64,000 bases of DNA from Stappia sp. MMSF_3263. Lineage in GTDB: Bacteria > Pseudomonadota > Alphaproteobacteria > Rhizobiales > Stappiaceae. Positions within the stretch are counted from its first letter, which is position 1, and each line of letters begins with the position of its first letter. The notes under the pieces are model-generated. The model saw only the letters and a program-made list of their open reading frames with translations. It was not told where the DNA came from and ran no database searches. The stretch covers positions 110,001 through 174,000 of the forward strand of contig NZ_JASHIK010000003.1 in NCBI RefSeq assembly GCF_030733745.1. The letters are read 5' to 3'. Position numbers and translations under genes: made by a program. Positions 22,769 to 54,496 of the stretch are shown here, in pieces.

Positions 22769-22855
22769 ATCATTTGGACGCGACTGGTCCGGCGCCTTGC
22801 CGGACCCCATTGCCGCGCGCGCTGCGCCCGGCCAAACATGTCTGGGAGGACATCC

Positions 22856-37816: not shown

Positions 37817-38977
37817 TCAGCGGGAAAGATCGGAGATCAAGCGCGAAACGAAACGTTCGCCGGCTGCGAGTTGCGCAATCTCGATGAACTCGTCGGGCTG
37901 ATGGGCCTGGTCGATCGAGCCCGGGCCGCAGACGACGGAGGAGATGCCACGCTCCTGGAATTGGCCCGCTTCCGTCCCGTAGACGACCATGTGCCGGCCG
38001 TTGTCACCCGTCAACCGGCGCGCCAGGCCTTCGGCAGGGCCATCCGTTTCCTCCGCAAGGGCGGGAGAATCGGCGATGCACTCGATGCTCACGCCCGTGT
38101 CGGCGTGAATCTGCCGCATCGAGGGCTCTATCGTGTCACGGACGAATTCCTCGAGCCGCGCCTGCCACATCTGGCGGGTTTCGCCCGGCACGGTGCGCAC
38201 ATCGACGACGAACTTGCAGGACCGGGCCATGATGTTGGCGGCGGTGCCACCTTCTATCACGCCGCAATGAAGGGTGGTGAAGGGCGGATCCATGACGAGG
38301 CCGGGATCGGCGCGCTCGCGGTTCTCGCGGGTCCGGTCATCGAGCCAGGCGATGATGCGCGCCGCATTGGCGATGGCCGAGACGCCGCGATCCCACTGGC
38401 TGGAATGAACGGAATGGCCGCGCACGGACACCTGCAGCAGGGCGGTACCCTTGTGCGCGGTGATCACCTGCATGCTGCTCGGCTCGCCGATGACGGCCAT
38501 TGCCGGCCGCGGGCCGTCCGACAGCATGTTGTCGATCATCGGCGGGGCGCCCAGGCAGCCAAGTTCCTCGTCATAGGACAAGGCAAGATGAACGGGCCGG
38601 GTCAGCGGAGCGGCCGCCATGTCCGGCACGGCGGCCAGCATCAGTGCCGCGAAACCCTTCATGTCGCAGGTGCCGCGTCCGTAGAGGCGGCCGTCGGCCT
38701 CGCGCAGCGTGAAGGGGTCGCTCGACCATGCCTGCCCCTCGACAGGGACGACATCGGTGTGCGCGGACAGGACGACGCCGTTGTCGACGTGAGGTCCGAC
38801 GACCGCATGCAGGGCCGCCTTGGTGCCCGTCGCATCGGGTACCCGTATCGAGGCGATGCCATGTCCGGCGAGGTAGCTCTCGACAAACTCGATGAGGTCG
38901 AGATTGCTGCGCGCGGAAACCGTCGGGAAAGAAACGAGACGCGCCAGCATCTCCTGTGCGGAGTAACGTTCGGCCAT
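37817..38977 (-). CDS. argE: M20-family acetylornithine deacetylase-like hydrolase
   Basis: 386 residues. Metal-site motifs of M20 deacylases are present: SAHTDVVP (His), RGTCDMKG (Asp), DEELGCLG (catalytic Glu pair), GTEAGQF and the late AHQPDEF histidine. Length and motif spelling fit the ArgE group. It removes an acetyl or similar acyl group from an amino acid. It lies 16 bases after the cyclase gene and upstream of the peptide-type importer on the same strand, so it might act on imported N-acyl compounds rather than in arginine synthesis. CGCGTA/TACGCG arms sit downstream at 37762-37782. Confidence 0.82.
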   Translation of the reverse strand: MAERYSAQEMLARLVSFPTVSARSNLDLIEFVESYLAGHGIASIRVPDATGTKAALHAVVGPHVDNGVVLSAHTDVVPVEGQAWSSDPFTLREADGRLYGRGTCDMKGFAALMLAAVPDMAAAPLTRPVHLALSYDEELGCLGAPPMIDNMLSDGPRPAMAVIGEPSSMQVITAHKGTALLQVSVRGHSVHSSQWDRGVSAIANAARIIAWLDDRTRENRERADPGLVMDPPFTTLHCGVIEGGTAANIMARSCKFVVDVRTVPGETRQMWQARLEEFVRDTIEPSMRQIHADTGVSIECIADSPALAEETDGPAEGLARRLTGDNGRHMVVYGTEAGQFQERGISSVVCGPGSIDQAHQPDEFIEIAQLAAGERFVSRLISDLSR

Positions 38978-38993
38978 GATCGTGGGACCCGTG

Positions 38994-40670
38994 TCAGGCG
39001 GGAAGGGAAGGTGTCTTGCCCAGAGTATCGACCAGGCGGAGCGGCGGGTCGAGCGCGAAAACGCGCAAGGGCTCCTGCCGGCCGCGAATGGCGATCTCCG
39101 TTTCCTCGGCCGCATCGCATGCATAGCCGGCCGTCTGCATGACCGTCTGCGATACGACCAGCGCACGGCCGAACTCCTTCGAGGCGCCTTCCAGCCGGCT
39201 GGCGGTGTTGACCACGTCGCCGAGCGCGGTGATGCGGCCGCTGGCGCCGTTGCCGTTGACAGCCCCGATACGCCCGAGGATGACCTGGCCGGCATGCAGC
39301 CCCATGCCGATGCGCAAAGGCGCCTCGAGCTGCGAGGCAAGTTCTTCGTTGAGCTGGGCGATGCTTTCGGCAATGGCATTGGTGGCGGCCAGAGCGTTGC
39401 GGCAGCCCGCCTGAATACCGTCGCTCATGCCGAAGATCGCCATCACCCCGTCGCCGATGAATTTGTCCACATATCCTCCACAGGCCTCGATGGCGCGTCC
39501 GGTCTCGCCGAGATAGCGGTTCAGGATGAACACGACGTCGTAGGACAGGCGGGTTTCGGCCAGGCCGGTGAAGTTTCTCAGGTCGACGAAGAGAATGGCC
39601 GCAGGCTGTTCCACGCCCCAGTGGTAGGCATCGCCCGCGGCCCCGGCGACACGCGCCGCGCCGCGCGCGGGAACGAGCGGCTGCACACGCAGGTTCGCCT
39701 GCGGGCGGATCTGGCAGGCGAGGCGCACATTGGCATCCGCACCGATGCGCGACAGGACCCTGGCTTCGGTGGCCGAGGCCTCGGGCAAGGTCTGGGCGCC
39801 GTCGAGGATCCGGGTCCTGCAGGTCGAGCAGCGGGCCCGGCCGCCACAGACATCGGCATGGGGGATGCCGTTCATCCGGCTGATCTCGAGCAGCGTGGGA
39901 CCGGGCGCGACGCGCAGGATGCGGTCGCCGGGATAGACGATTTCGATGTTTCTGGCGAACCGGCGCATGACGACGCGGGCGACAAGCACGATGGCAACGA
40001 GGGCAAGCAGCAGCAGGAACCCGCGCTGCAAGGCGGTGATCAGCGGATCGGACCAGGCGGTCATCTCGCGGGTCAGGGGGAAGGGCGGGTTTTCGGTCAG
40101 GCGCAGGCGCTGGGCCGCGGCGGTCCAGCCCCAGGTGGCGAGCAGGGGAACGAGCAGTGCCACCGCGAACACAAGCAGGCGCCAGCGCGGGTAGCCGGCT
40201 TTCACCCTGAGCCAGAAATGCAGGCCGATCATGCCGTGGCTCCACACCAGCAGCATCAGGAGCGTCTGGTTGAAGACCAGGCCTGGCCACAGGATGGTGA
40301 GGACATTGCGATAGCTGTCCTCGTAGCCGAAGCGCGCGGCCAGACCGCCCGTTCCCAGCGCATGCGGGATCAGCAGGAAGGGAATGCACAGGCCCAGAAG
40401 CAATTGCGCCCATTGCCAGGCCGACAGGCGCAAGGTGCGCCGGCGGGCGGTTTTCCACAGTGCCAGCGTGACATGGACGATCAGGGCTGCGAGCAGAAGC
40501 GCTTCGCCCGGGGGACTGCGCCAGACCGCCAGGAAGGCGATCCTCCCGGCCTCCATCGCTTCGAGCGACCAGATGCCGAGCGCATGGTTGAGAAAATGGG
40601 TGAAGGCGAAAGTCAGCAGCACGAGGCCGCTTGCCAGACGCAGGCGCTGGCGCAGCGTTGCGCCGTCCAT
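38994..40670 (-). CDS. Membrane/[2Fe-2S] ferredoxin/class III adenylyl cyclase fusion
   Basis: 558 residues in three parts. Residues 10-236 hold about six membrane helices rich in histidines (H25, H29, H66, H103, H145, H151), with an FTHFLNHALG stretch like SdhC-type b-cytochromes. Residues 240-330 are a ferredoxin domain with ligands C275, C281, C284 and C319 (Cx5Cx2C spacing, adrenodoxin-like). Residues 355-530 are a class III cyclase: metal aspartates D363 (FVDLRNFTG) and D407 (FIGDGVMAIFG), and LGDVVNTASRLE. It should make cAMP in response to redox or electron flow at the membrane. Start: GGGAGG nine bases before this ATG; an ATG ten codons earlier is possible. Confidence 0.82.
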   Translation of the reverse strand: MDGATLRQRLRLASGLVLLTFAFTHFLNHALGIWSLEAMEAGRIAFLAVWRSPPGEALLLAALIVHVTLALWKTARRRTLRLSAWQWAQLLLGLCIPFLLIPHALGTGGLAARFGYEDSYRNVLTILWPGLVFNQTLLMLLVWSHGMIGLHFWLRVKAGYPRWRLLVFAVALLVPLLATWGWTAAAQRLRLTENPPFPLTREMTAWSDPLITALQRGFLLLLALVAIVLVARVVMRRFARNIEIVYPGDRILRVAPGPTLLEISRMNGIPHADVCGGRARCSTCRTRILDGAQTLPEASATEARVLSRIGADANVRLACQIRPQANLRVQPLVPARGAARVAGAAGDAYHWGVEQPAAILFVDLRNFTGLAETRLSYDVVFILNRYLGETGRAIEACGGYVDKFIGDGVMAIFGMSDGIQAGCRNALAATNAIAESIAQLNEELASQLEAPLRIGMGLHAGQVILGRIGAVNGNGASGRITALGDVVNTASRLEGASKEFGRALVVSQTVMQTAGYACDAAEETEIAIRGRQEPLRVFALDPPLRLVDTLGKTPSLPA

Positions 40671-40825
40671 CCTGCCGGTCCTCCCTGAATGCCCGGTCAT
40701 CGCTTCCGTCCCCTTGCGTGTTCCGGCCGGCGGGGCCGGTCCCGGTCTTGACGGCCAAGGCGAGGGTCGCTCATCTTCGCCAGCCGGATCGCCCGGCCGA
40801 TCCCGCAACCCGGAGGCTTTTCGAG

Positions 40826-41183: not shown

Positions 41184-41987
41184 CTACGGCTTCCACAGCC
41201 GTTCGATGTCGAAGGCGTGGATGTCCTTGAGCAGGTCGACGAAACCGCGCGCGGCGTGATCGAGCGAGGCCTCGCCCTTGACGGCCGTCGCGGCGGCGGC
41301 GTTGCCGACCGTGCCGGCCGGGTTGAGATCCTGCGCCTTCCAGCCGAACTGGGCCGGCCCGTGCCCGCGCAGATGCTTGAACTCGCGGATGAAGTCGAGC
41401 TGGGTGGAGCGGAAGTCGGTGGCCTTGGACATGTCGACGAGGTCTGGCCGCAGATAGAGCATGATCGACGTCTCTATGTCGCCGCCATGGATGCCGTAGG
41501 TGAATTCCTTGTCGGGGAAGATGCCGTGCGGCTGGCCGAAGCGGGACCAGCCCGTGGCCGTCACCAGCATGTCGTGCTTCACCCGCAATTCGCGCGCGAC
41601 GATGTCGATGATCGGCACGTTGCCGCCATGCGAGGTGACAAGCACGAGCTTGCGTATCCCGGCGCGCGCGATGCTGTCGCCGATCTCCTCCCAGGCGCGC
41701 GTCACCGTCTCCCAGGAAAGGGTCAGTGTGCCGGGCGAGGAGATATGCTCGTTGGACTTGCCGATGGCCTGCACGGGAAGAAAGGTTGCCGGCAGGTCCT
41801 CCGGCAGGAGCTCCAGAACGCGCGAAATCTGGCCTTCGGCGATGCAGGTGTCGGTGAAGACAGGCAGATGCGGCCCGTGCTGCTCGATGGCGGCAACCGG
41901 AAGAATCGCGATCCATGACGAGGTGTCGGCCTCGGCGAATGTGTGGGCGCTCATCTCATGCCAGAAACGGCGGGGAAGGTTGGACAT
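41184..41987 (-). CDS. Creatininase-family amidohydrolase
   Basis: 267 residues. The metal site reads E35-Q-H37-G-P-H40 with D46 following, then LVTSHGGN and a late glutamate in HGGDIETS. These are the signatures of the creatininase superfamily, which hydrolyses cyclic or linear amides such as creatinine, formamidopyrimidines and mycofactocin precursors. It lies next to deaminase-like and nucleobase-type uptake genes, so a ring amide is a likely substrate. AGAGG six bases upstream supports the ATG at 41987 over one six codons earlier. Confidence 0.85.
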   Translation of the reverse strand: MSNLPRRFWHEMSAHTFAEADTSSWIAILPVAAIEQHGPHLPVFTDTCIAEGQISRVLELLPEDLPATFLPVQAIGKSNEHISSPGTLTLSWETVTRAWEEIGDSIARAGIRKLVLVTSHGGNVPIIDIVARELRVKHDMLVTATGWSRFGQPHGIFPDKEFTYGIHGGDIETSIMLYLRPDLVDMSKATDFRSTQLDFIREFKHLRGHGPAQFGWKAQDLNPAGTVGNAAAATAVKGEASLDHAARGFVDLLKDIHAFDIERLWKP

Positions 41988-42164
41988 GACGGCCTCTTGA
42001 AGCAAACGGGGTGGGGTGCGGCAAGCCGCATTGTCGTGGGCAAACCATAGCGCGCGAACCCGGCAGCGTCATTGCCGGCGGCGCGGGTTGCCTCACAAAA
42101 AACTGAAGCGCCGATGCCGGGCGGATTAACCCTTCGCTTACCTGCCCCTGCGGAAGATCGCGTC

Positions 42165-43037
42165 ATGTTCGCGGCTCTTCACTTTTCCGGCCTTGCCCTC
42201 GCGCCGGCCACGACAGGCGCGGCGCGCTCGGAGCCATCGTCGGGTGTTGCATCCGGCGCGGGCGCGGCTGCAAGAACGCGTGCGCCATCCCCGGCGCTTG
42301 CCGGAGAGGGCGGCAGCGCGGTCACGGCGGTCGCCACCTTGCGAAGCGATGCGGTCGCCGCCCTTCAGGCAGGCGATGCAAGCGCACAGGCACGAAAGGA
42401 CGAGCGCGATCCGACCGCGACGTCCGCTCTTTCGGCGAAACCGGCCTCCGAAGACGACGAGGACGGCGGCGGGGCGGGCGCGCTCGAGGGCGAGGACCTT
42501 TCCCCGGAAGAGGAAACCCAGGTTCGCGATCTCAAGAAGCGCGACGCGGAAGTCAAACAGCACGAGCAGGCGCATGCCAGCGTCGGCGGGCCCTATGCCG
42601 GGTCGCCGAGCTACCAATATACGCGCGGGCCGGACGGCAAGCGCTATGCGGTGTCCGGCGAGGTGCCGATCGATGCCTCCGCGGAGCGCGAACCGGAGCA
42701 GACCATCCGCAAGATGGAGGTCGTGATTCGCGCAGCCCTCGCACCGGCCGAACCCTCGCCGCAGGACCGACAGGTGGCCGCGCAGGCGAGCCAGACCCGC
42801 AGCGAGGCCCAGGCGGAGCTGCAAAAGCAGCGCGCCGAGGAACAGACAGGCGGGAGCGACACGCCCGCAACTGGGCTCGACGCGGAACCGGCGTCGGCGC
42901 GCGGCGACGATGCCCGGGACACTCAAGCGGCCGAGGCGCGCCGACAGGCGGGGGCCGCCGTTGCCGCCTACCGGGTATCCGAGGCCGCAACGGCGGGCCT
43001 GGTCACGAGTGCGGCGAACGGCGGGCGTATCGCCTGA
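42165..43037 (+). CDS. Putative SprA-related metalloprotease (CJM1_0395 family)
   Basis: 290 residues. The N-terminal hundred are low-complexity, rich in Ala, Ser and charged residues. The conserved core (about 112-215) begins [16 protein letters not shown] and carries an intact zinc motif, H133-E-Q-A-H137, followed by [23 protein letters not shown] and a TIRKM-type helix. This matches the SprA-related/putative metalloprotease family. The C-terminal tail is disordered and alanine-rich. Family function is unknown. Start is uncertain: GGAAG precedes 42165, but ATG 42114 is also in frame. It is alone on the plus strand here. Confidence 0.72.
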
Positions 43038-43047
43038 GGGATGCGCG

Positions 43048-44391
43048 CTAAAGCGCTTCCAGGAAGCGTTTGGCGGCGGCGCCGTGTTCGGCGCGCAGCT
43101 TTTCGACATCCATGTTGACCGGCAGGCCGTCGGTCACTTTCCACTCGCCCCCGACCATCACGCGCGAGGCGGCATGGGCCCCGCACAGCACCAGGGCGGC
43201 GAGCGGGTCGCCGGATCCGGAAAAGCGCAGCTCGTCGAGCGTGTAGAAGGCCAGGTCCGCCTGCTTGCCCGGCGCGATGGCGCCGAGGTCCTTGCGTCCG
43301 AGGCAGCGTGCCGAACCCTCCGTCGCCCAGCGATAGGTGTCGAAATGGGTGACGGACGCCGCGTCATAGGTGAGCCGGTTGATCATCAGCGCGTGCCGCA
43401 GGCTCTCCATCAGGTTGGAGTTGTCGTTCGAGGCCGAGCCGTCGACACCGAGCCCGACCGGACAGCCTGCTGCCTCCAGCTCCTTGGTTCGGCACTGGCC
43501 CGAGGCCAGCGTCATGTTGGAGGTCGGGCAGTGGCAGACGCCGACGCAGGCATGGCCAAGGCGGCGTATCTCGTCGTCGTTGAAATGAATGCCGTGGGCG
43601 AGCCAGACGCGCTCGTTGAGCCAGCCGCATTCCTCCAGATAGTCGACCGGCCGGCACTGGAAATGGTGCAGGCAGTAGTCGTCCTCGTCGATGGTCTCGC
43701 CGAGATGGGTGTGCAGGCGGCAGTCGAAGCGCTCGGCCAGCGCGACGCTCTCGCGCATCAGCCGCTTGGTGACAGTGAAGGGCGCGCAAGGAGCGAGCGC
43801 CACCTGGATCATCGCCCCTTCGGACGTGTCGTGGTAGCGCGAGAGCACCCGCTCGCAGTCGGCCAGGATCGTGTCCTCGTCCTGGACGACGGTGTCGGGC
43901 GGCAGGCCGCCGTCCTTCTGGCTGAGGTTCATGGAACCGCGGGTGACCGTCATGCGGATGCCGAGGCGGGTCGCTTCCTCCACCTGGATGTCGATGGCGT
44001 TCTCGAGACCGGCGGGAAACAGATAATGATGATCCGCCGCCGCCGTGCAGCCCGACATCAGCAGTTCCGTCAGGGCCAGCCGGGTGCCCATCCGGAAGGT
44101 TTCCGGCGTGACGTTTCTCGCCCAGATCGGATAGAGCGCCTGGAGCCAGGGAAACAGCTCCTTGTTGATGGCGCTCGGATGGGCGCGCGTCAGGGTCTGG
44201 AAAAAGTGATGGTGGGTGTTGATGAGGCCGGGAATGACGACCTCGCGCGAGGCGTCGAGGGTCTCATTCACCGGCCGCGACGGCGCGCCGCCGGAGGGAA
44301 TGCATTCGGCGATCCGTCCGTCCTCGACGACGATGCCGCCGCCGGCGTTTTCCGCAAGGATTGCGAGCGGGTTCTTGATCCACATGCGCAT
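43048..44391 (-). CDS. Amidohydrolase, 8-oxoguanine deaminase-like
   Basis: 447 residues, the usual size of 8-oxoguanine deaminases. Metal ligands appear in NTHHHFFQTLTRA (H60, H62), HTHLGET (His and catalytic Glu), LAHGIHF (His) and GVDGSASND (Asp). The HHHFFQTLTRA spelling and the PCAPFTVT segment fit the 8-oxoguanine/isoxanthopterin deaminase branch. It would hydrolyse an amino group from a purine-like ring to the oxo form. GGACG precedes the ATG at 44391. It lies downstream of the Rid gene on the same strand, 207 bases away. Confidence 0.82.
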   Translation of the reverse strand: MRMWIKNPLAILAENAGGGIVVEDGRIAECIPSGGAPSRPVNETLDASREVVIPGLINTHHHFFQTLTRAHPSAINKELFPWLQALYPIWARNVTPETFRMGTRLALTELLMSGCTAAADHHYLFPAGLENAIDIQVEEATRLGIRMTVTRGSMNLSQKDGGLPPDTVVQDEDTILADCERVLSRYHDTSEGAMIQVALAPCAPFTVTKRLMRESVALAERFDCRLHTHLGETIDEDDYCLHHFQCRPVDYLEECGWLNERVWLAHGIHFNDDEIRRLGHACVGVCHCPTSNMTLASGQCRTKELEAAGCPVGLGVDGSASNDNSNLMESLRHALMINRLTYDAASVTHFDTYRWATEGSARCLGRKDLGAIAPGKQADLAFYTLDELRFSGSGDPLAALVLCGAHAASRVMVGGEWKVTDGLPVNMDVEKLRAEHGAAAKRFLEAL

Positions 44392-44598
44392 GAATGTGCG
44401 TCCTGTTGTCGGCTCGACCTGCAGGCTTTGATAGCGGCTGTCATGGCCGCCCGAGTTCCGCACAGGGAAGTGGGGTCCAAGCATGATCCCCGAGCGCGGG
44501 CGGCCGGCGGCAAGACCGGACAGCCCGATGTCGGGATGCAGGGAATCTAGCAGACCGGGAAAGATCGCGGCAATGCGGGAGTTGCGTGCTCCACCCTG

Positions 44599-44985
44599 TC
44601 AGGGGGCGCTGGCGATGACCTCGATCTCGACCACGAATTCCGGGCGGGCGAAGCCGGAGACGATCATCAGGGTCGAGGCCGGCGGCGGCGAGCCGGTGAA
44701 TTCGTCCCGTGTCTTCATGTAACCGGGCAGGTGCTCGCGGCCGGTGACGAAGGCGTTGATGCGCACGATGTCCGAAAGATCCATGCCGGCTTCGGTCAGG
44801 ATCGCGGCGATGTTGGCGAAGCAAAGGCGCGTCTGGCCCTCGACGTCGGAAGGAACGTCGCCTTGCGAATCAATGCCGAGCTGGCCCGAGCAGACGACGA
44901 GGCGGTGTCCGGCCGGGATTTCGACCGCGTGGCTGTAGCGGGCAAAGGGCGGTGCGATGCTGCCGGGGGTGAGTGCCTTGGTCAT
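44599..44985 (-). CDS. RidA/YjgF-family protein lacking the catalytic arginine
   Basis: 128 residues, one chorismate-mutase-like Rid domain. SGQLGID, TRLCFANIAAILTEAGM and DIVRINAFVT are family features. The segment that in E. coli RidA holds the imine-hydrolysing arginine (PARSCVEV) reads PASTLMIV here, so the arginine appears replaced. The late glutamate (VEIEVIA) is kept. It is probably not a classical enamine deaminase but one of the other Rid subgroups, possibly acting on a pathway intermediate of the neighbouring deaminase genes. GGGAAA supports the start at 44985. Confidence 0.85.
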   Translation of the reverse strand: MTKALTPGSIAPPFARYSHAVEIPAGHRLVVCSGQLGIDSQGDVPSDVEGQTRLCFANIAAILTEAGMDLSDIVRINAFVTGREHLPGYMKTRDEFTGSPPPASTLMIVSGFARPEFVVEIEVIASAP

Positions 44986-45455
44986 GATGTTTCCCTGATC
45001 GTTCATTTGCCGTCGCGGCGACTTGCTGTCCCGACCCTAGGAGACCGCCGGCGTTTTGGGAATCCGCCGGAGGAGCCGCGCTGATCATTTAGCGGGCGTT
45101 AGATGTTGTTTCGATGCCGCTTTTTTGTGCGGGCAACCTGGGGTACTGTTCGTCAAGCCTGTCACGTAACCGGGGTCGGCGGGGCGCGCTGCGGCGTTTG
45201 CCATTGTTGATCGCGCGGATGCGAAAGAAACAGCGAGCGGGGATGGCGAATTGTCAGTTCTGACTGTACCGGCATCCCTTTTGGCATATCGATTGCTGTG
45301 TGGGAGTTGATGGCTTTCTTCAGGGTGCCGGGCAGGTGAACAATGCCGCGTGGTTCTCACGCGGGGGCAACGGCATGCCGCCAATCGGGACGGAATGATC
45401 GGTCTGGAAGAAAAGCCGGCACGCAATTGCATCATTTCTGGAGGCGAACAGCATC
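44986..45455. other. Divergent control region between the Rid gene and the heterocycle importer
   Basis: 470 bases without a gene. The key element is the sigma-54 promoter at 45281-45297. A GTCAG-TT-CTGAC dyad (45253-45264) lies just upstream and may be an activator or repressor site. The leader from about 45308 to the importer ATG at 45456 is roughly 150 bases. I looked there for TPP, purine and guanidine riboswitch cores and saw none. GGAGG at 45440-45444 precedes the binding-protein gene. Confidence 0.5.
45281..45297 (+). promoter_or_regulatory. Sigma-54 promoter of the heterocycle uptake/catabolic operon
   Basis: TTGGCAT-A-TCGA-TTGCT: GG at 45283-45284 and GC at 45295-45296 are ten bases apart, and both half-sites match the -24/-12 consensus (TGGCA and TTGCT), with the weaker CG pair changed to TA. 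Start of transcription is expected near 45308. No obvious NtrC dyad is visible upstream, so the activator is uncertain. Confidence 0.7.
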
Positions 45456-46481
45456 ATGCGGACAGTTTCAAAGAATGCCCTGCTGGCGGGCGCGGCCCTG
45501 GCGGCGCTTGCCGTTTCGGGCCTTGGCGCCGCGGCGCAGGAAAAAGTGACCTTCGGCACCAACTGGCTCGCCCAGGCCGAGCACGGCGGCTACTATCAGG
45601 CGGTCGCGGACGGCACCTATGCCGCCTGCGGTCTCGATCTTTCCATCGTCTCCGGCGGACCCCAGGTCAACAACCGGGCGCTGATGCTCGCCGGCAAGAT
45701 CGATTTCCTGATGGGCGGTAACATGCTGCAGGCCTTTTATGCGCAGCGTGAGGGCATTCCGATCGTCGTGGTGGCCGCGGATTTCCAGAAGGAGCCGCAG
45801 GTCATCATCACCCATCCGGGCAAGTACGAGAGCTTCGAAAGCCTGGCCGGCGCGGCGCCGCTGCTGATCGGCGACAACGGCTTTGCCTCCTACTACCAGT
45901 GGATGATCTCGGAATACGGGTTCACCGTCGAGCAGCGCCGCCCCTACACGTTCAATCCGGCTCCCTTCCTCGCCGATCCGACCGCGGGCCAGCAGGGCTA
46001 CGTCACCTCCGAGCCCTATGCGGTCGAACGAGAGGGCGGTTTCAAGCCGGACATCTTCCTGATTGCCGACTACGGCTTCAGCACCTACGCGACCACCGTC
46101 GAGACGATGGCCGACACGGTCGCCAACCGGCCCGAGGTGGTGAAGTGCTTCGTCGAGGGATCGGCCATTGGCTGGACCAATTATCTTTACGGCGACAACT
46201 CCGCCGCCAACGAGATGATCATCAAGGACAATCCGGAGATGACCGCCGAGCAGATCGCCTTCTCCATCGAGAAGATGAAGGAGTTCGGCATCGTCGATTC
46301 CGGCGATACCGAAACGCTTGGCATCGGCGCCATGACCGACGAGCGCATGACGGACTTCTACGAGAAGATGGTCAAGGCGGGCGTCATCGAGGAAGGTCTC
46401 GACCTCAAGGCGACCTACACGCTCGAATTCGTCAACAAGGGCGTCGGGCTCGACCTGAAGAAGAAGCTGACAGGGAACTGA
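45456..46481 (+). CDS. ABC transporter substrate-binding protein, NMT1/THI5-like
   Basis: 341 residues with a signal peptide ending GLGAAAQ. NMT1/SsuA-like periplasmic protein: FGTNWLAQAEHGGYYQAVADG at the N-terminus is characteristic of binding proteins for pyrimidine-like or thiamine-precursor ligands, followed by NRALMLAGKIDFLMGGNM. It would deliver its ligand to the permease encoded two genes later. The gene opens the operon driven by the sigma-54 promoter. Downstream enzymes (amidohydrolase, FAD oxidase) suggest a nitrogen heterocycle as ligand. Confidence 0.87.
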   Translation: MRTVSKNALLAGAALAALAVSGLGAAAQEKVTFGTNWLAQAEHGGYYQAVADGTYAACGLDLSIVSGGPQVNNRALMLAGKIDFLMGGNMLQAFYAQREGIPIVVVAADFQKEPQVIITHPGKYESFESLAGAAPLLIGDNGFASYYQWMISEYGFTVEQRRPYTFNPAPFLADPTAGQQGYVTSEPYAVEREGGFKPDIFLIADYGFSTYATTVETMADTVANRPEVVKCFVEGSAIGWTNYLYGDNSAANEMIIKDNPEMTAEQIAFSIEKMKEFGIVDSGDTETLGIGAMTDERMTDFYEKMVKAGVIEEGLDLKATYTLEFVNKGVGLDLKKKLTGN

Positions 46482-46542
46482 GGCTGTTGACCCAGATGTT
46501 TGCGAACCGGCCGGCACGGCAGGAAGACAGGGGAGCTCGCGG

Positions 46543-47361
<819 letters not shown>

Positions 47362-47437
47362 GCGGTCCGGGCGGTGTCCCCGCCCGGGTTCGCACAGCAC
47401 GCCACCATCCCTTCCAGAGACAGACAGGACCGACCGC

Positions 47438-48316
47438 ATGACGGCCAACACGGATATGTCCCAACGGCTGGACCAGGCCGACGACACGCCGCCGATCGAC
47501 CCGGCGGAAGCGCGCAAGGCGCGCCGCGCGCGGATCGACCGTGTCGCGCGGTGGCTGCTGCCGGTACTCGTGATGCTGGGGACTGTCGGTCTCTGGCAGT
47601 GGTATGTGGATGCCTACAACGTTCCCCACTACATCCTGCCCGGGCCGGACCGGGTGGTCGATGCGCTGGTCAAGGACTGGTCGACACTGTGGCCAGCCCT
47701 TTTGATCACGCTGCAGATCACGCTCGGCGCGCTGATCATCGCCACGGTCGGCGGTGTCGGACTTGCGGTCCTCTTCGCCCAGTCGAAATGGGTGGAGATG
47801 TCGTTCTTCCCCTATGCGGTCATTCTGCAGGTGACGCCGGTGATCGTGATCGCGCCGCTGATCTTCATCTACGTTCCCTCCAAGATCGTGGGCCTGCTGA
47901 TCTGCGCCTGGATCGTGGCGTTCTTCCCGATCCTGTCGAACACGACGCTGGGGCTGAACTCGGCCGACCACAACCTGCGCAACCTGTTCCAGCTCTACGG
48001 CGCCAGCCGCTGGCAGACCCTGCGCTACCTTCGTCTGCCGGCGGCGCTGCCCTACTTTCTCGGCGGCCTGAAGATCGCCGGCGGCCTGTCGCTGATCGGT
48101 GCCATCGTCGCCGAATTCGTCGCCGGAACCGGCGGGCTCGGTTCGGGCCTCGCCTTCAAGATCCTGGAGGCGAGCTACCGGTTGAACATCCCGCGCATGT
48201 TCGCCGCGATCCTGCTGATCTCGGCCACCGGCATCATCATCTTCGCCAGTCTCAGCATCCTTTCGCACCTGATGCTGCGTCACTGGCACGAGAGCGCCAT
48301 CAAGCGGGATACATGA
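47438..48316 (+). CDS. ABC transporter permease (SsuC/TauC-like)
   Basis: 292 residues with a charged N-terminal tail and six hydrophobic helices. The conserved domain has LPGPDRVVDALVKDW, FFPILSNTTLGL and the ATPase-contact loop NLFQLYGASRWQTLRYLRLPAALPYFLGGLKIA-like region of the sulfonate/nitrate/thiamine-precursor permeases. It is four bases before the amidohydrolase gene and 76 bases after the ATPase gene. ATG at 47456 is a possible alternative start. Confidence 0.88.
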   Translation: MTANTDMSQRLDQADDTPPIDPAEARKARRARIDRVARWLLPVLVMLGTVGLWQWYVDAYNVPHYILPGPDRVVDALVKDWSTLWPALLITLQITLGALIIATVGGVGLAVLFAQSKWVEMSFFPYAVILQVTPVIVIAPLIFIYVPSKIVGLLICAWIVAFFPILSNTTLGLNSADHNLRNLFQLYGASRWQTLRYLRLPAALPYFLGGLKIAGGLSLIGAIVAEFVAGTGGLGSGLAFKILEASYRLNIPRMFAAILLISATGIIIFASLSILSHLMLRHWHESAIKRDT

Positions 48317-48320
48317 CGAA

Positions 48321-49640
48321 ATGAGCGATGCAGCCCGGCTCGACCTTCCGGAAAGCGGCTATGTGCTGGCCAATGCGACGGTGCCGAGCGCCGTCACGTC
48401 GGGCACGATCAACCACATGGGCGACGGGCTCGGGCGCGCGGACCTGCTGATCGAGCGCGGCGAAATCGCTTCCGTCGCGCCGTGCGGGTTGCTCGTCGGA
48501 CGCGACGACCTGCCAGCCATCGATCTCGACGGCGGGCTTGTCCTGCCGGCCTTCGTCGACATGCACACCCATCTCGACAAGGGGCATATCTGGCCGCGCA
48601 AGCCCAATCCCGACGGAACCTTTCCCGGCGCCCTGACGGCGGTCTCGGAGGACCGCCCGGCGCGCTGGTCGGCGCAGGACCTGCGCCGACGCATGGATTT
48701 CGCCCTGCGCACCGCCCATGCGCACGGCACGGCGATGGTGCGGACACATCTGGACAGCATCCCCCCGCAAGAGGCGATCAGCTGGCCGGTCTTTCAGGAG
48801 GTGCGCCGCGACTGGGCGGATAGGATCGAGATACAGGCCTCGGCGCTCTATGGCGTGGAAAGCCTGCTGCAGCCGGGATTTCTCGATCATATCGCCGATA
48901 TCGTGCGCGATGCCGGCGGCACGCTGGGTGCCGTCACCTACATGATCGAGGGGCTCGAGAGCAGCCTCGATGCGCTGTTCCAGGCGGCATCCCGCCGCGG
49001 GCTCGATCTCGATTTCCATGTCGACGAGACCGCCGATCCTCAGGCCCGATCGTTGCGTCTGATCGCGGAAGCGGCCTTGCGCAACCGTTTCAAGGGCAGG
49101 ATCGTCTGCGGCCATTGCTGTTCGCTCGCACTGCAGGACGCGGAGGAGGTGGACCGCACGCTCGACCTCGTCGCCAGGGCCGGCATCGGCGTGGTATCGC
49201 TGCCGCTTTGCAACATGTACCTGATGGACCGCCAGGCCGGGCGAACACCGCGATGGCGCGGTGTCACCCTGCTGCACGAAATGCGCGGGCGCGGCATCCC
49301 GGTCGCGGTTGCCTCCGACAACACCCGCGACCCCTTCTACGCCTATGGCGACCTCGACATGGTCGAGGTGTTCACCCAGGCGGTGCGCATCCTGCATCTC
49401 GACCATCCGGTCGGCGACTGGATCCGCACCGTCACCGTGACACCGGCGCAAATGCTCGGCGACCCGATGCGAGGGCGTATCGACGCCGGCCTGCCTGCCG
49501 ACCTTGTCCTGTTTCGCACCCGCAACTGGAACGAGCTGTGCGCCCGGCCATCCGGACCGAGGCGGGTGTTGCGCGCCGGGCAGGAGATTGGGCGAAACCT
49601 GCCGGACTATCGTGAACTCGACGACCTGATGGAGCCTTGA
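48321..49640 (+). CDS. Cytosine deaminase-like metal-dependent amidohydrolase
   Basis: 439 residues. Metal ligands and catalytic residues follow the CodA order: H82-T-H84-L-D, then HVDET, GHCCS and ASDNTRDPF, matching HxHLD, the catalytic Glu loop, the histidine strand and the final aspartate. The enzyme is expected to deaminate or hydrolyse a pyrimidine-like or triazine-like ring. It is the first enzyme gene of the importer operon (four bases after the permease, three bases before the next ATG), so its substrate is probably the imported compound or an early product. Confidence 0.85.
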   Translation: MSDAARLDLPESGYVLANATVPSAVTSGTINHMGDGLGRADLLIERGEIASVAPCGLLVGRDDLPAIDLDGGLVLPAFVDMHTHLDKGHIWPRKPNPDGTFPGALTAVSEDRPARWSAQDLRRRMDFALRTAHAHGTAMVRTHLDSIPPQEAISWPVFQEVRRDWADRIEIQASALYGVESLLQPGFLDHIADIVRDAGGTLGAVTYMIEGLESSLDALFQAASRRGLDLDFHVDETADPQARSLRLIAEAALRNRFKGRIVCGHCCSLALQDAEEVDRTLDLVARAGIGVVSLPLCNMYLMDRQAGRTPRWRGVTLLHEMRGRGIPVAVASDNTRDPFYAYGDLDMVEVFTQAVRILHLDHPVGDWIRTVTVTPAQMLGDPMRGRIDAGLPADLVLFRTRNWNELCARPSGPRRVLRAGQEIGRNLPDYRELDDLMEP

Positions 49641-49642
49641 TC

Positions 49643-51043
49643 ATGTACGATATCGCCGCGCTTAAAGCCGCCCTGGAGGGATTGGCGATCGAGGACAATC
49701 CGCAGATCGTCCGGCAGAAGAGCCGCGACTTCTTCTGGTACTCGCCGGTGCTGAAGCGCCAGCTCGAGGACGTCACCGCGGATATCGTGGTCAACGCGAA
49801 AAGCGAGGCGGATGTCATTCGCGTGCTCGCCGCCTGCCATGATCTGGACATTCCGGTGACGACGCGCGGGGCGGGGACGGGCAATTACGGCCAGGCGATG
49901 CCCCTGTCCGGCGGCGTGGTACTCAACCTGGCCGAGATGAACGGAGTGATCGAGATCGGCGCGGGCTTCGTGCGGGCGCAGGCCGGTGCGATCATGTCCG
50001 CGATCGATGATGCGGTGCGCCCCTCGGGCCAGGAGTTGAGGATGCATCCCTCGACCTATCGCACGGCGACGATCGGCGGCTTCGTCGCCGGAGGGTCCGG
50101 CGGCGTCGGCTCGATCAACTGGGGCGGCCTGCGCGACTTCGGCAACATCATCGAGCTGAAGGTGGTGACGATGGAGGCCGAACCGCGCGTGCTGACGCTC
50201 GCCGGGGCCGAATTGCACAAGGTCAGCCATGCCTATGGCACCAACGGCATCATCACCGAGGTGACGGTTCCGCTGACGGCGGCCTATGACTGGGTCGACG
50301 TGCTGGTGTCGTTTTCCGATTTCGCCGGAGCCGCACAATACGCCGATGCGCTGGCCAACCAGGACGGCATCCTGACCAAGGAGATCGCGCCGATCGGCGC
50401 GCCCCTGCCGCACGACTATTTCCTGAGGCATCGCAAGTTCGTGCGCGCCGACCAGTCGGTCTGCGCGGTGATGGTGGCGCCTTTCGCGATGGATGCCTTC
50501 GCCGCCTTCACCGGCCGGCACGACGAGGCCGCCATCGTCTACCGCTCGGACACCGCCACCGCGGAGGAGAGCAAGGGGCTGCCGCCGGTCTATGAACTGA
50601 CCTGGAACCACACGACCTTGCGCGGCCTCAGGGTCGATCCGAGCATCACCTATCTCCAGGTCCTTTATCCGTTCCCCGACCATGTCCAGAAGGCATCCCG
50701 GCTGGCCGAACTGTTCGGCGACGAGGTGCCGGGACATCTGGAATTCGTGCGTTTCGACGGCAAGATCACCTGCTTCGGCCTGCCCATCGTGCGCTACACG
50801 AGCGAGGAGCGGCTGAACGAGATCATCCGCATCCACGAGGACATGGGCTGTCCGATCTTCAATCCGCACCGTTACACGCTGGAGGAAGGCGGCATGAAGC
50901 AGACAGACGCGGTGCAGCTTGCCTTCAAGCGCGAGGCGGATCCCAAGGGCCTTCTCAATCCCGGCAAGATGATCGCCTGGGAGAACCCGGATTTCGATTT
51001 CGCCTCGGAACAGACCTATCTCTTCCCAGGCCTGGGGCGTTAG
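49643..51043 (+). CDS. FAD-linked oxidase (GlcD/VAO-type)
   Basis: 466 residues. The FAD-binding PCMH domain (about 40-220) has TRGAGTGNYGQAMPLSGGVVLNL, ATIGGFVAGGSGGVGS and YGTNGIITEVTVPL, typical of GlcD and related flavoproteins. The C-terminal oxidase cap ends with DPKGLLNPGKMI. It has no separate [Fe-S] domain. It would oxidise a hydroxyacid or ring carbon, passing electrons to a quinone or another carrier; the two NAD(P)H:quinone-reductase-like genes next door are possible partners. In-frame ATG at 49643 is preferred to a TTG two codons earlier. Confidence 0.84.
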   Translation: MYDIAALKAALEGLAIEDNPQIVRQKSRDFFWYSPVLKRQLEDVTADIVVNAKSEADVIRVLAACHDLDIPVTTRGAGTGNYGQAMPLSGGVVLNLAEMNGVIEIGAGFVRAQAGAIMSAIDDAVRPSGQELRMHPSTYRTATIGGFVAGGSGGVGSINWGGLRDFGNIIELKVVTMEAEPRVLTLAGAELHKVSHAYGTNGIITEVTVPLTAAYDWVDVLVSFSDFAGAAQYADALANQDGILTKEIAPIGAPLPHDYFLRHRKFVRADQSVCAVMVAPFAMDAFAAFTGRHDEAAIVYRSDTATAEESKGLPPVYELTWNHTTLRGLRVDPSITYLQVLYPFPDHVQKASRLAELFGDEVPGHLEFVRFDGKITCFGLPIVRYTSEERLNEIIRIHEDMGCPIFNPHRYTLEEGGMKQTDAVQLAFKREADPKGLLNPGKMIAWENPDFDFASEQTYLFPGLGR

Positions 51044-51051
51044 GTCTTGCC

Positions 51052-51633
51052 ATGCGGGTGCTCCTGATCCATGCGCATCCGGTGGAGGAGAGCTTTTCGG
51101 CCGCCTTGAAGGCGGAGGCCCTGCGGGCACTGGTTGCAGCCGGCCACAGCGTCGAGGAGTGCGATCTCTATCGCCGGGGCTTCAACCCGGTGCTGACCTG
51201 CGAGGAGCGCATCGCCTATCACGACCTTGAAACGAATCGCGGGCCGGTCGAGGACTATGTCGCACAATTGCTCAGGGCCGAGGCGATCGTGCTTGTCTAT
51301 CCGGTCTGGAACTTCGGCTTCCCGGCGATCCTGAAGGGCTATTTCGACCGGGTCTTCCTGCCGGGCGTCTCGTTCCGGATGAAGGACGGCAAGGTGGTTC
51401 CCAATCTGCGGCACGTTCGCCGTCTGGTGGCCATCACGACTTATGGCGGCAGCCGGTTTCGCGCCTTTCTGGTCGGCGATCCGCCGCGCAAGCTGATATG
51501 CCGCGTCTTGCGCGCGTTGATCGCGCGCACGGGGCGGCTGTCCTATCTGGCGCTCTATGACATGAACCGCAAGGATGCGGCTGGCCGGGCGGCATTCCTC
51601 GCCCGGGTGGGAGACGAACTGAAGAGACTTTGA
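51052..51633 (+). CDS. Flavodoxin-fold NAD(P)H:quinone reductase-like protein (copy 1)
   Basis: 193 residues. N-terminal LLIHAHPVEESFSAAL is the FMN/FAD loop of the KefF/NQO1/MdaB group; PVWNFGFPAILKGYFDRVF is the family hallmark. It probably reduces quinones or small electrophiles using NAD(P)H. It is eight bases after the FAD oxidase gene and overlaps copy 2 by one base (TGATG). The two neighbours are clearly homologous and form a tandem pair. Confidence 0.85.
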   Translation: MRVLLIHAHPVEESFSAALKAEALRALVAAGHSVEECDLYRRGFNPVLTCEERIAYHDLETNRGPVEDYVAQLLRAEAIVLVYPVWNFGFPAILKGYFDRVFLPGVSFRMKDGKVVPNLRHVRRLVAITTYGGSRFRAFLVGDPPRKLICRVLRALIARTGRLSYLALYDMNRKDAAGRAAFLARVGDELKRL

Positions 51634-52220
51634 TGCGCATACTGCTCGTCTATTGCCATCCGTCGGCGGAGAGTTTCGCCGCCGCCCTGCGCGACACCGC
51701 CATCGAGACGCTGACCGCCGGCGGGCACGAACTGCGGGTGACCGACCTTCACGCGCAGGGCTTCGATCCCGTGATGGGTGAGGCGGAATGGCGCTGCTAT
51801 GCCGACCCGGACTGCAACCGCAATCCGGTTGCCCCGCATGTCGACGACATCCTGTGGGCGGAGGCGCTGCTCTTCGTCTATCCGACCTGGTGGTTCGGGC
51901 TTCCGGCCATGCTGAAGGGCTATCTCGACCGGGTCTGGATCCCGCATGTGACCTTCGACATTCCGACCCAGACATCGGGGATGCGGCCGCGCATGCAGCA
52001 TATCGGCAGGATCGCGGTGATCACCACCTGCGGCGCGTCCTGGTTCGTGTCGAAGATGATGGGAGAGCCGGGCCGCCGCACGATCCTGCGCGGCATCCGG
52101 GCGCTGTGCCTGCCGCGATGCCGGGCTCGCTATCTTGCGCATTACAACATGGACAGTTCCACGCCGCAGAGCCGGGCGCGCTACCTTGGCAAAGTGAAAC
52201 GGTTTCTCGCCGGTTGGTAA
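51633..52220 (+). CDS. Flavodoxin-fold NAD(P)H:quinone reductase-like protein (copy 2)
   Basis: 195 residues. LLVYCHPSAESFAAAL at the N-terminus and PTWWFGLPAMLKGYLDRVWIP mirror copy 1, and both end in a basic C-terminal helix. Identity with copy 1 is partial, so they may form a heterodimer or differ in substrate. Translation starts at the ATG within the TGATG overlap. It is the last gene of the importer operon; a 196-base gap with a perfect 26-base palindrome leads to the MarR gene. Confidence 0.85.
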   Translation: MRILLVYCHPSAESFAAALRDTAIETLTAGGHELRVTDLHAQGFDPVMGEAEWRCYADPDCNRNPVAPHVDDILWAEALLFVYPTWWFGLPAMLKGYLDRVWIPHVTFDIPTQTSGMRPRMQHIGRIAVITTCGASWFVSKMMGEPGRRTILRGIRALCLPRCRARYLAHYNMDSSTPQSRARYLGKVKRFLAGW

Positions 52221-52302
52221 GCCGTCTTGCAAGCCGCGCCGCTCGGTGCCCACTCTGCCGGTTTTTCCCAGAGGAGCGAATCCGCTTTGATATTCAGCCG
52301 AT

Positions 52303-52328
52303 CCCGGCACATTATTGAATGTGCCGGG
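52303..52328. promoter_or_regulatory. Perfect 26-base palindrome before the MarR gene
   Basis: Eleven-base arms CCCGGCACATT and AATGTGCCGGG enclose ATTG. It lies about 90 bases before the MarR start. It could be an operator for that regulator or a terminator-like hairpin after the quinone-reductase gene; no T-run follows, so an operator is slightly favoured. Confidence 0.5.
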
Positions 52329-52416
52329 TAGGTATGCCGCGAACCGGCTTATGGAATTTTCATCAGGTTCGTTCGGTGTCATCAAGCTTTCATTTGCCGG
52401 CGTTAGAAGGCGGGAC

Positions 52417-52887
52417 ATGGCGTTCAATCACAAAAAGAGCGTGACGTTTCGCCTGGCGCAGACCGCCAAGGCCCATCGTTCGCGCGCAGGCACCCACCTT
52501 TCCCGGATCGGTCTCCATCCGGGTCAGGAATCCGTTCTCAAGGTTCTGGCCGAGGAAGACGGCCAGACGATGAGCAAGCTGGCCGCGACGCTGTCGGTGC
52601 AACCGCCGACGGTGACCAAGATGGTGACGCGCCTGTCGGCGCAGGGATTCCTGCGGCGCGCGACATCGGAAACCGATGGCCGCCTCGCCAGGGTGTTTCT
52701 CACCGACGAAGGCCGTGCCCTCGTGGAAACGGTCGACAAGACGTGGAAGCGGCTGGAGCGGGAAGCGCTTGCCGGGCTCGACGACAAGGACCGCAAGAAG
52801 CTGCGCAAGCTGCTGCGCCAGGTCGAGAAGAACCTCGGTTCGCGCACGGTCGACGATCTCGACCTGGAGCCTGACGAGGCCGACTGA
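52417..52887 (+). CDS. MarR-family transcriptional regulator
   Basis: 156 residues. Winged helix-turn-helix: GLHPGQESVLKVLAEEDGQTMSKLAATLSVQPPTVTK-like recognition region around 28-63, with the DGR wing (SETDGRLARVFLT). C-terminal helix is strongly basic and acidic. MarR proteins typically release DNA on binding aromatic or phenolic compounds or on oxidation. It follows the quinone reductases and may repress them or the whole heterocycle operon. ATG at 52417 is chosen since the frame upstream is not family-like. Confidence 0.87.
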   Translation: MAFNHKKSVTFRLAQTAKAHRSRAGTHLSRIGLHPGQESVLKVLAEEDGQTMSKLAATLSVQPPTVTKMVTRLSAQGFLRRATSETDGRLARVFLTDEGRALVETVDKTWKRLEREALAGLDDKDRKKLRKLLRQVEKNLGSRTVDDLDLEPDEAD

Positions 52888-52955: not shown

Positions 52956-54299
52956 TCAGCCGGCCATGCCCGCCAGGTGCAGGCCGAGGCCCGCAAGGCC
53001 GCAGACGACAACGATTTCCGCAACTCCCCGCCTCAGCCTGAAGAGAAGAAACGCGGCCAGTGCGGCCAGCCCAAGGACCAGCGGGTCGAAGCTCGCGACA
53101 TCCGGCAGGGGCATGGAAAGCGCTCCCCATTCGAACTCTGCCACATCCGAAAACAGCACGTTCAGCGCGAACCAGACGGACAGGTTGAGGATCGTGCCGA
53201 CGACCGCGGCGGTGACCGCCGTGAGCGCGCGCGACAGCCAGGCCACCGTCCGGATGCGCTCGACGAAAGGCGCACCGAGCAGGATGAAGAGGAAGCTCGG
53301 CGCGAAAGTGACCCAGGTCGTCATCATCGCCGCAAGCAGCCCGCCAAAGGCGGGGGAGAGCGGCGCCGGATCCCGGTAACCGCCGAGGAAGCCGACGAAC
53401 TGGGTTACCAGGATGAGCGGACCGGGGGTCGTCTCGGCAAGACCGAGACCGTCGAGCATTTCCCCGGGCGTCAGCCATCCCCGCGCCTCGACGGCGACCT
53501 GCGCCATGTAGCTGAGCAGCGCGTAGGCCCCTCCGAAACTGACCAGCGCCATCGTCGAGAAGAATCCGGCGATCTCGACGAGGACATGCTGCGGGGAAAG
53601 CAACAGGACGGCAGTGCCGACCGGCAGCCCCCACAGGCACAGGCCGACCGCAAGCCCCGCCAGAAGCGAGGGGCGGGCAGGCGCCCGCGCGGTGTGCGGC
53701 ATGTGTGGTGTACTTGCCGTTGGCGGTGCGGGCGCGGGCGGTGCGGGCGCGGGGGCAAGCGCGACACCGGCAAGCGCCGCGGCGATCACGACGAGGGGAA
53801 AGGGAAGCTTGAACAGGAACAGCGCCAGGAACGAGAGGCCGGCGACGGTCCAGGCCAGCGGCGTTGCCAGGGCACGGGTGCCCAGGCGCGCAAGCGCCTG
53901 TACGACGATCGCGAGCACGGCGGCCTTGATGCCGTAGAACAGGCTTTCCACGACGGGGCTGGAGCCGAAGCCGACATAGAGAAACGACAGCGCCAGCATG
54001 GCGAGGGCGCCGGGCAGGATGAAGAGCAGCCCGGCGACAAGGCCGCCGCGAACACCTCCCACCATCCACCCGCAATAGGTGGCGAGCTGTTGCGCCTCCG
54101 GGCCCGGCAACAGCATGCAGTAGTTGAGCGCGTTGAGAAAACGGTCCTCGCCGACCTTCTTTCCCTCGGCGACGAACTCCTTGTGTATCAGCGCGATCTG
54201 GGCCGCGGGCCCGCCGAAGGAGGCAAGACCGATTGCCAGCGAGCGCCGCGCCAGCCAGGCTCGTTCGTCGCGGATGTCGTCGCTCGGTCGTCTGACCAT
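52956..54299 (-). CDS. chrA: Chromate transporter, two-domain
   Basis: 447 residues with about ten to twelve helices arranged as two homologous CHR domains. Each begins with the family motif: SFGGPAAQIALIH in the first and SFGGAYALLSYMAQ in the second. The domains are joined by a Pro/Ala-rich linker near residue 200. It exports chromate through the inner membrane, driven by the membrane potential. No chrB or sulfate gene is adjacent. It converges with the MarR gene and is divergent from the EamA gene across a 197-base region. Confidence 0.9.
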   Translation of the reverse strand: MVRRPSDDIRDERAWLARRSLAIGLASFGGPAAQIALIHKEFVAEGKKVGEDRFLNALNYCMLLPGPEAQQLATYCGWMVGGVRGGLVAGLLFILPGALAMLALSFLYVGFGSSPVVESLFYGIKAAVLAIVVQALARLGTRALATPLAWTVAGLSFLALFLFKLPFPLVVIAAALAGVALAPAPAPPAPAPPTASTPHMPHTARAPARPSLLAGLAVGLCLWGLPVGTAVLLLSPQHVLVEIAGFFSTMALVSFGGAYALLSYMAQVAVEARGWLTPGEMLDGLGLAETTPGPLILVTQFVGFLGGYRDPAPLSPAFGGLLAAMMTTWVTFAPSFLFILLGAPFVERIRTVAWLSRALTAVTAAVVGTILNLSVWFALNVLFSDVAEFEWGALSMPLPDVASFDPLVLGLAALAAFLLFRLRRGVAEIVVVCGLAGLGLHLAGMAG

Positions 54300-54496
54300 C
54301 GGCACGTTCTTCCTTGCGCGGGCGGTATGCCCGGGTTGAGCGTAGCGCATAGCGGGTCTGCGATTCCGCTGCATGACAAATCGCGACTTTCGCCCGACCA
54401 TTCTATATGTAGGACAAATGCTCGGCCGCAGGTCGGGATGCGATCGGGTGTGTCGACCAGACAGCGTCCGCCGGATGACGATTGGGGTAGACACCG

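Follow-up and report, generated by a model that had tools for sequence, protein, structure and literature searches.

Which compound is taken up and broken down by the gene island at positions 41184-52887 of a 64,000-nucleotide stretch of Stappia sp. MMSF_3263 (contig NZ_JASHIK010000003.1, positions 110,001 to 174,000; the whole stretch is called the window below)? The island codes for a creatininase-like hydrolase (creat), a Rid-family protein (rid), the solute-binding protein (SBP; gene sbp), ATPase (atp) and permease (perm) of an ATP-binding cassette (ABC) importer, a "cytosine deaminase"-like amidohydrolase called CytD here (cytD), a flavin adenine dinucleotide (FAD)-dependent enzyme (fad) and two flavodoxin-type reductases (flav1, flav2). 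An earlier note, made from the letters of the DNA, took it for an uptake and breakdown island for a nitrogen heterocycle, which gene content and conservation support. The note thought of a purine, a pyrimidine or a triazine. This choice of compound class is not supported; the folate label of a solved relative of the FAD enzyme and the fit of CytD to pterin deaminases point to a pteridine. In our view the island likely serves to import and catabolise pterin (the ring part of folate) or folate itself, mainly as a nitrogen source.

The folate label comes in with the FAD enzyme. Its sole close solved relative is PDB entry 6v42, matched with 690 bits over residues 5-466 at about 64% identity, and Foldseek run on a predicted model of the enzyme (mean predicted local distance difference test score, pLDDT, 72.7) also ranked 6v42 first, with a template modelling (TM) score of 0.89 and 64% identity. 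The title of the entry is "flavin oxygenase with cofactor bound involved in folate catabolism". Genomic homologues of 6v42 were sought among 394 genomes of one family; 131 of these carry one with E <= 1e-150, and in one genus the identity is 86-89%. The loci of eight of the ten closest homologues (six of the eight from that genus) were fetched, and creat, rid, sbp, atp, perm, cytD, fad, flav1 and flav2 are found together in every one of them. Since all eight loci of close 6v42 homologues carry the cluster, the folate label very probably applies to the cluster as well, by way of homologues 79-89% identical to 6v42. At least some of the cluster was evidently known to those who deposited 6V42.

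The conserved core is eight genes: the creatininase-like gene, rid, the three importer genes, cytD, fad and a flavodoxin-type reductase. Eighty loci were gathered by means of the FAD enzyme; they are the best 80 of 581 confirmed matches and no random sample, and a gene was counted as present at an identity of at least 40% over at least half of the query; the loci measured up to 21 kb and the gene could lie at any place in them, so that adjacency was not strictly required. By this measure CytD is present in 80 of 80 loci, the reductase in 79, perm in 77, sbp and atp in 76 each, rid in 70 and the creatininase homologue in 68. Among 20 loci of relatives picked by CytD the FAD enzyme and the reductase occur in all, each importer gene and rid in 19 and the creatininase homologue in 15. 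The FAD enzyme was also found in 30 of 30 short loci from a search with the CytD family, a sample which overlaps the others, since it includes the window itself and ten loci whose genomes are also represented among the 20 relatives. It should be noted that several loci end at contig ends and that L045/L061, L056/L068 and L049/L070 are pairwise from the same genomes. The earlier note held that its proposal would fall if the neighbours were not conserved together in relatives; they are, with all eight genes in 60 of the 80 and 15 of the 20 loci.

The 8-oxoguanine deaminase, which had been counted among the island's members, is a lineage accessory outside the core (10 of the 80 FAD-enzyme loci, 14 of the 20 relatives). 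The SprA-related gene (0/80 and 4/20) is probably unrelated to the pathway. The MarR regulator is counted as lineage-specific with 13 of the 80 loci; other islands have a LysR regulator (Rhizobium) or a TetR regulator (Comamonadaceae and Alloyangia). Candidates for the core which were dropped, each with 0-10 of the 80 loci, are the SprA-related, chromate, EamA, LacI, 2-hydroxyacid dehydrogenase, aminotransferase and 8-oxoguanine deaminase genes.

CytD has H82, H84, H233, E236, H265 and D333 at the places of H61, H63, H214, E217, H246 and D313 of E. coli CodA, the catalytic residues, and all six are invariant in 21 aligned sequences. Two other residues of CodA, Gln156 and Asp314, which we take to be contacts in the cytosine pocket, are replaced: the Gln156 column contains G in 14, P in 5, A in 1 and S in 1 of the 21 sequences, and the Asp314 column contains Asn in all. 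The reading of CytD as a canonical cytosine deaminase was rejected on account of these replacements, and the automatic label "cytosine deaminase" is called into question by the cluster. That label, NCBIfam PRK07583, and PRK08203 for the 8-oxoguanine deaminase are both scored above their cut-offs and would suit an island for scavenging of nucleobases, be it cytosine, isocytosine, 8-oxoguanine or another purine. Such a role is quite unlikely in view of the exchanged pocket residues, of the 70 FAD-enzyme loci out of 80 that lack the 8-oxoguanine deaminase at the threshold used, and of the scanned island genes of the window, among which there is no xanthine dehydrogenase or urate gene.

What CytD resembles instead is seen from the published pterin deaminases. 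In the part of the source covered here these are Arad3529 of A. radiobacter K84 and a protein of 399 amino acids from Variovorax F1, which are 36-37% identical, and the latter was cloned with the help of an "endoribonuclease" gene whose downstream position is conserved in V. paradoxus (PMC9513972). Among our islands the deaminase of the R. rhizogenes island shows 35-39% identity to its counterparts on the Comamonadaceae plasmid and in islands L203-L205, whose genomes were judged Comamonadaceae-like from their proteins, and 31-33% to those of the Klebsiella type. The R. rhizogenes genome used, which we take to belong to the K84 lineage, also has four paralogues outside the island, and the two best of these reach at most 30% identity to the Comamonadaceae-type island deaminases. 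Island L203 has a deaminase of about 400 residues with a rid gene adjacent. Because both the identity pattern and the Rid-type gene next door match the published enzymes, CytD fits the group of Arad3529 and the Variovorax F1 pterin deaminase (PDA), and we infer that it is a pterin deaminase; the pattern fits and is short of proof.

The importer is in line with a ligand that contains a pyrimidine. A profile of 16 SBP sequences matched the solved structures 4nmy (E 5e-18), the formylaminopyrimidine-binding protein ThiY (3ix1, E 7e-10) and THI5/THI13. One may therefore think of an island that degrades a 4-aminopyrimidine such as the pyrimidine of thiamin (hydroxymethylpyrimidine, HMP, or formylaminopyrimidine): after import by the ThiY-like system CytD would deaminate the compound, the FAD enzyme would oxidise its hydroxymethyl group, and the creatininase homologue and Rid would open the ring. 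The relationship of CytD to pyrimidine deaminases agrees with this, and a Rid protein and amide hydrolysis would suit a pyrimidinone ring. At variance with it, the nearest solved FAD enzyme bears a folate catabolism label and has near relatives in the same island, CytD matches the identity pattern of the pterin deaminases, and no thiamin pyrophosphate (TPP) riboswitch, nor any other Rfam RNA, was recognised at gathering scores in window positions 30000-60000. We regard the 4-aminopyrimidine route as unlikely and the pterin or folate cluster as the better description.

The two remaining proteins of the core are the creatininase homologue and the Rid protein. In the creatininase homologue E36, H38, D47, H121, H168 and E173 are invariant in 22 of 22 aligned sequences, and the motif EQHGPHLP, which we take to be the metal site, is kept. 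The score on the NCBIfam creatininase equivalog is 90.7 bits, where the cut-off is 235. As the residues are kept and the score is far below the cut-off, the protein is probably an active metallohydrolase with a substrate other than creatinine. In a pathway for creatinine or hydantoin CytD would deaminate creatinine and the creatininase homologue would open the ring. The family membership and the closest solved structures, which are creatininases, would allow this, but a creatinine pathway was rejected because the equivalog cut-off is not reached; it would also leave the FAD enzyme, the Rid protein, the reductases and the link to 6v42 unexplained, and we find it highly improbable. The Rid protein was said in the earlier note to be without its catalytic arginine. 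This was borne out in the alignment, where the RidA arginine column (which we take to be Arg105) contains Ser in all 113 Rid sequences recovered, with Ser-Thr at that place; the sequences were sought in 144 loci, of which 31 gave no sufficiently long match and 15 are short loci around the FAD gene only. Since Ser replaces the arginine, the usual RidA mechanism cannot be assumed for the island protein. A Rut pathway was rejected, there being no RutA-type monooxygenase or RutB among the scanned island genes of the window; the view that the set matches no Rut, urate or hydantoinase pathway holds for the genes scanned.

The role as a nitrogen source is suggested by the promoter region. Sigma-54 promoters have a GG at -24 and a GC at -12, with the consensus TGGCAY-N5-TTGC. 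The motif TGG[CT]A[CT]-N5-TTGC is found within 400 bp 5' of sbp in 52 of 120 loci (17 of them in the strict form) compared to 9 of 2221 control windows; the controls come from the same loci, and the 120 include duplicate genomes and related loci which are not independent. All eight fetched loci of the 6v42 type have the site. As the sites are spread over several genera, a chance origin is unlikely even with related loci among them, and the biology of sigma-54 points to a role of the cluster in nitrogen scavenging, under nitrogen control, in the lineages which have the site. Further upstream a block of 17 bases is identical in the window, L059 and L040, and similar blocks lie 5' of the sigma-54 site in L047, L056/L068 and L077. 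The element has 4 mismatches out of 12 to the NtrC consensus; with at most 3 mismatches of 12 the consensus occurs in 16 of 52 upstream regions and in 98 of 1040 shuffled ones, the loci again not being independent. The element is graded tentative because the consensus is weakly met in the upstream regions.

These elements can be combined into a working model. The NMT1/ThiY-like importer would take up a pteridine. CytD would then strip off the 2-amino group and convert pterin to lumazine, the activity reported for Arad3529 and the Variovorax F1 enzyme, provided that it is their orthologue. Next the FAD enzyme, with the NQO-type reductases feeding or assisting it, would oxidise the deaminated pteridine or cleave the side chain; the bond attacked would lie in the ring or be C9-N10, and the oxygenase role is adopted from the title of 6v42. 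From the chemistry of their families, the creatininase-like metallohydrolase would open a lactam ring, and the arginine-less Rid protein would resolve the resulting enamine or imine with release of ammonia. In the Stappia lineage the sigma-54 promoter would place the importer-deaminase-oxygenase operon under control of nitrogen limitation, and the 8-oxoguanine deaminase would be an extra branch in Stappia and its relatives. Both the order of the steps and the substrate in Stappia are what we infer from the genes.

The gene set recurs, whole or in large part, in Hyphomicrobiales, Rhodobacterales, a Comamonadaceae plasmid and Enterobacterales plasmids, and the island therefore exceeds a chance association. 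According to annotated records it is on plasmids, again whole or in large part, in Rhizobium, Alloyangia, Sulfitobacter, a Comamonadaceae bacterium, Pantoea and Klebsiella. An FAD-enzyme homologue with E <= 1e-60 is present in 32 of 398 genomes sampled across the phylum, four of them outside the class, and most of the core is found in L203-L206, L209, L212 and L213 out of 13 distant regions. The accompanying genes vary. In the Enterobacterales a PDR/VanB-type reductase replaces the flavodoxin-type one (L142, Klebsiella pneumoniae plasmid; L144, Pantoea plasmid). The Nitratireductor and "Roseateles" islands have a 2Fe-2S protein listed and no flavodoxin-type reductase, and in Nitratireductor no Rid is listed either. 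Ruegeria keeps Rid, the creatininase homologue, the deaminase and the FAD enzyme, together with a TauD-type dioxygenase and a different type of importer protein.

Some islands contain a second FAD enzyme, 39-50% identical, near the creatininase gene (L081:11712-13148, L088:12989-14557, L126:223-1605 and L209 at about 5.0 kb), which suggests two successive flavin-dependent steps or two substrates. Reduced islands (L057, L129 and L134) keep cytD, fad, the reductase and MarR, with EamA also in L129 and L134; no importer, creatininase or Rid gene was found in these three, and they may process the substrate only in part. The folD gene beside L129 and L134 was considered as a folate link and dropped, the stretch being a sucAB-lpd region. 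Genes for a BMP-type importer, a formamidase and a ring-opening amidohydrolase come after the island in Rhizobium sp. T1473 (L141:13763-19281) and perhaps form a unit for ring catabolism linked to it. Deaminases like CytD beside ABC importers, with no FAD enzyme or creatininase, are seen at L147:7872-9224 and L148:7866-9215 (the Rhizobium sp. T1473 and Aminobacter cases taken up below) and possibly represent a separate pathway for a related heterocycle.

A number of observations weigh against a pterin or folate pathway, or against its generality. The folate label is the title of a PDB entry, and no paper behind 6v42 was found in the open-access literature searched. CytD is tied to Arad3529 and the Variovorax enzyme by identity figures and gene order rather than by direct alignment, and a different clade of CytD-like proteins could contain the published pterin deaminases. 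The second deaminase of Rhizobium sp. T1473 is 47% identical to CytD of the window and 35% to the Comamonadaceae one, and its neighbours are an ABC importer and a 2-oxoglutarate oxygenase, with no FAD enzyme or creatininase; a CytD-like protein on an Aminobacter plasmid (53% to CytD of the window) lies with an ABC importer and Rid, also without these two. As CytD-like genes occur without the FAD enzyme or creatininase, the pathway is not defined by CytD on its own. In S. meliloti a more distant homologue (34%) adjoins xanthine dehydrogenase genes and a BMP-type importer; the pairing of CytD and the FAD enzyme is strong and not universal across the wider family. The ligand of the SBP cannot be read from its sequence, and its ThiY-type relatives bind thiamin pyrimidines. 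The core itself has gaps: at the threshold used the creatininase gene was not found in 12 and rid not in 10 of the 80 FAD-enzyme loci, partly owing to contig ends; two of the distant regions (L207, L208) have creatininase, Rid, deaminase, FAD enzyme and a TauD-type gene and no NMT1-type importer, and in L201, L202, L210 and the incomplete L211 the core is present only in part. Of the 120 loci, 68 are without the sigma-54 site, among them the Rhizobium islands of the LysR type. Finally, the island yielded neither a carboxypeptidase G gene nor one for p-aminobenzoyl-glutamate, and the nearest M20 gene (37817-39379), tried as a carboxypeptidase G, is ArgE-like instead; the imported compound may for this reason be a pterin already free of p-aminobenzoyl-glutamate.

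The features of the island are given in Table 1. Domains were assigned by Pfam and NCBIfam scans of the island proteins, in which all proteins named in the earlier note were located and confirmed; the SprA-related gene and the chromate-transporter gene had been missing from it. Two divergent units flank a gap of 449 bp (45007-45455). The leftward unit consists of rid, the 8-oxoguanine deaminase gene and creat; the rightward one of sbp, atp, perm, cytD, fad, flav1 and flav2, with marR after it.

Table 1. Features in and beside the island, in window coordinates (ORF, open reading frame)
Feature	Position	Strand	Status	Remarks
Creatininase-family hydrolase	41184..42005	-	core	likely start 41987; PF02633 Creatininase, E 8e-72
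SprA-related gene	42072-43037	+		PF12118; inside leftward unit, opposite strand
8-oxoguanine-deaminase-like amidohydrolase	43048..44484	-	accessory	NF006055/PRK08203, 654 bits, cut-off 532; true start perhaps 44391 or 44385
Rid-family protein without catalytic arginine	44599..45006	-	core	PF01042, Rid/L-PSP, E 5e-23
Conserved upstream element TGCCGC-N5-TGTGCR, possible NtrC-type enhancer site	45115..45131	+	tentative	
Sigma-54 (-24/-12) type promoter-like site TGGCATATCGATTGC	45282..45296	+		174 nt 5' of sbp start
NMT1/THI5-type solute-binding protein, sbp	45456..46481	+	core	PF09084, NMT1, E 1e-17
ABC transporter ATPase, atp	46543..47361	+	core	PF00005
ABC permease, perm	47438..48316	+	core	PF00528 BPD_transp_1, E 2e-24; ORF opens at 47237, probable start 47438
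CytD, "cytosine deaminase"-like amidohydrolase	48321..49640	+	core	NF005759/PRK07583, 631 bits, cut-off 403
FAD-dependent oxygenase/oxidase, FAD_binding_4	49637..51043	+	core	probable start 49643
Flavodoxin-2/NQO-type NAD(P)H reductase 1, flav1	51052..51633	+	core function	PF02525
Flavodoxin-2/NQO-type NAD(P)H reductase 2, flav2	51630..52220	+		PF02525; probable start 51633
MarR-family regulator	52315..52887	+	lineage-specific	PF01047
Chromate-transporter gene	52956-54494	-		directly after island

On the other side the island is adjoined by a gene for a protein with 2Fe-2S and adenylate/guanylate cyclase domains (38994-40808, - strand), as is also the case in several Stappia-type relatives. 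Elsewhere in the window a strict sigma-54 site, TGGCACGACTGTTGCA, is found at 22753 (+), preceded by a pair of sensor kinase and sigma-54 activator genes (19364-22608). It sits within the 5' part of the DctP ORF 22646-23857, so the true start of DctP is probably later.

The cluster would be of the kind that breaks down a vitamin, and many genes that have so far been lacking for folate breakdown in bacteria may lie in it. In the open-access literature (subscription papers and theses were outside the search) no description of the whole cluster was found; for folate breakdown single enzymes and no described cluster were found. As stated in the part covered here of a 2025 paper on riboflavin catabolism (PMC12746152), only the catabolic pathways of pyridoxal 5'-phosphate (PLP), NAD+ and riboflavin are well characterised and the rest is a gap. 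We see about as much reason to accept as to doubt the wider claim that with this cluster a complete set of genes for bacterial catabolism of the pterin ring can be recognised for the first time. The set would comprise a dedicated pterin importer, a pterin deaminase, a flavin oxygenase of the vanillyl-alcohol oxidase (VAO) fold and a new two-enzyme ring opening by a creatininase-fold hydrolase and an arginine-less Rid; it would extend over Hyphomicrobiales, Rhodobacterales, Comamonadaceae and some Enterobacterales and in many of them be under sigma-54 nitrogen control. As the counts of FAD-enzyme and 6v42 homologues given above indicate, the marker of the cluster is common. The cluster supplies a list of proteins to assay and would, if the reading is true, bear on the turnover of folate by environmental bacteria.

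Among the known systems the Rut pyrimidine pathway also uses a Rid protein, RutC; the Rid protein of the island differs in having Ser in place of Arg. With CodA of E. coli (1k6w) CytD shares the family and the catalytic His/Glu/Asp set, whereas Gln156 and Asp314 of CodA are substituted. The riboflavin/lumichrome cluster of Nocardioides simplex is likewise a case of vitamin ring catabolism; in the part of the paper covered here N. simplex hydrolyses the pyrimidine ring and employs a P450, a thiamin-dependent decarboxylase and dioxygenases, and no word beginning with "creatinin", "deaminase" or "Rid" occurs in the main text (PMC12746152). Also comparable are the folate-degradation enzymes of Variovorax sp. 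F1 (PMC9513972, in the part covered), where a Rid-type gene lies downstream of the 399 amino acid pterin deaminase as in L203, and where the identity of the deaminase to Arad3529 is in the range found between the Comamonadaceae-type and Rhizobium island deaminases. Two enzymes, carboxypeptidase G and pterin deaminase, are described in that part of the source and no importer, flavin oxygenase or creatininase is reported there, "FAD" and "creatinin" having no occurrence in its main text. A further related system is the flavin oxygenase labelled as acting in folate catabolism in PDB entries 6V42/6V43, to which the FAD enzyme is similar over nearly its full length and whose close homologues lie in the same cluster; the deposit consists of one protein.

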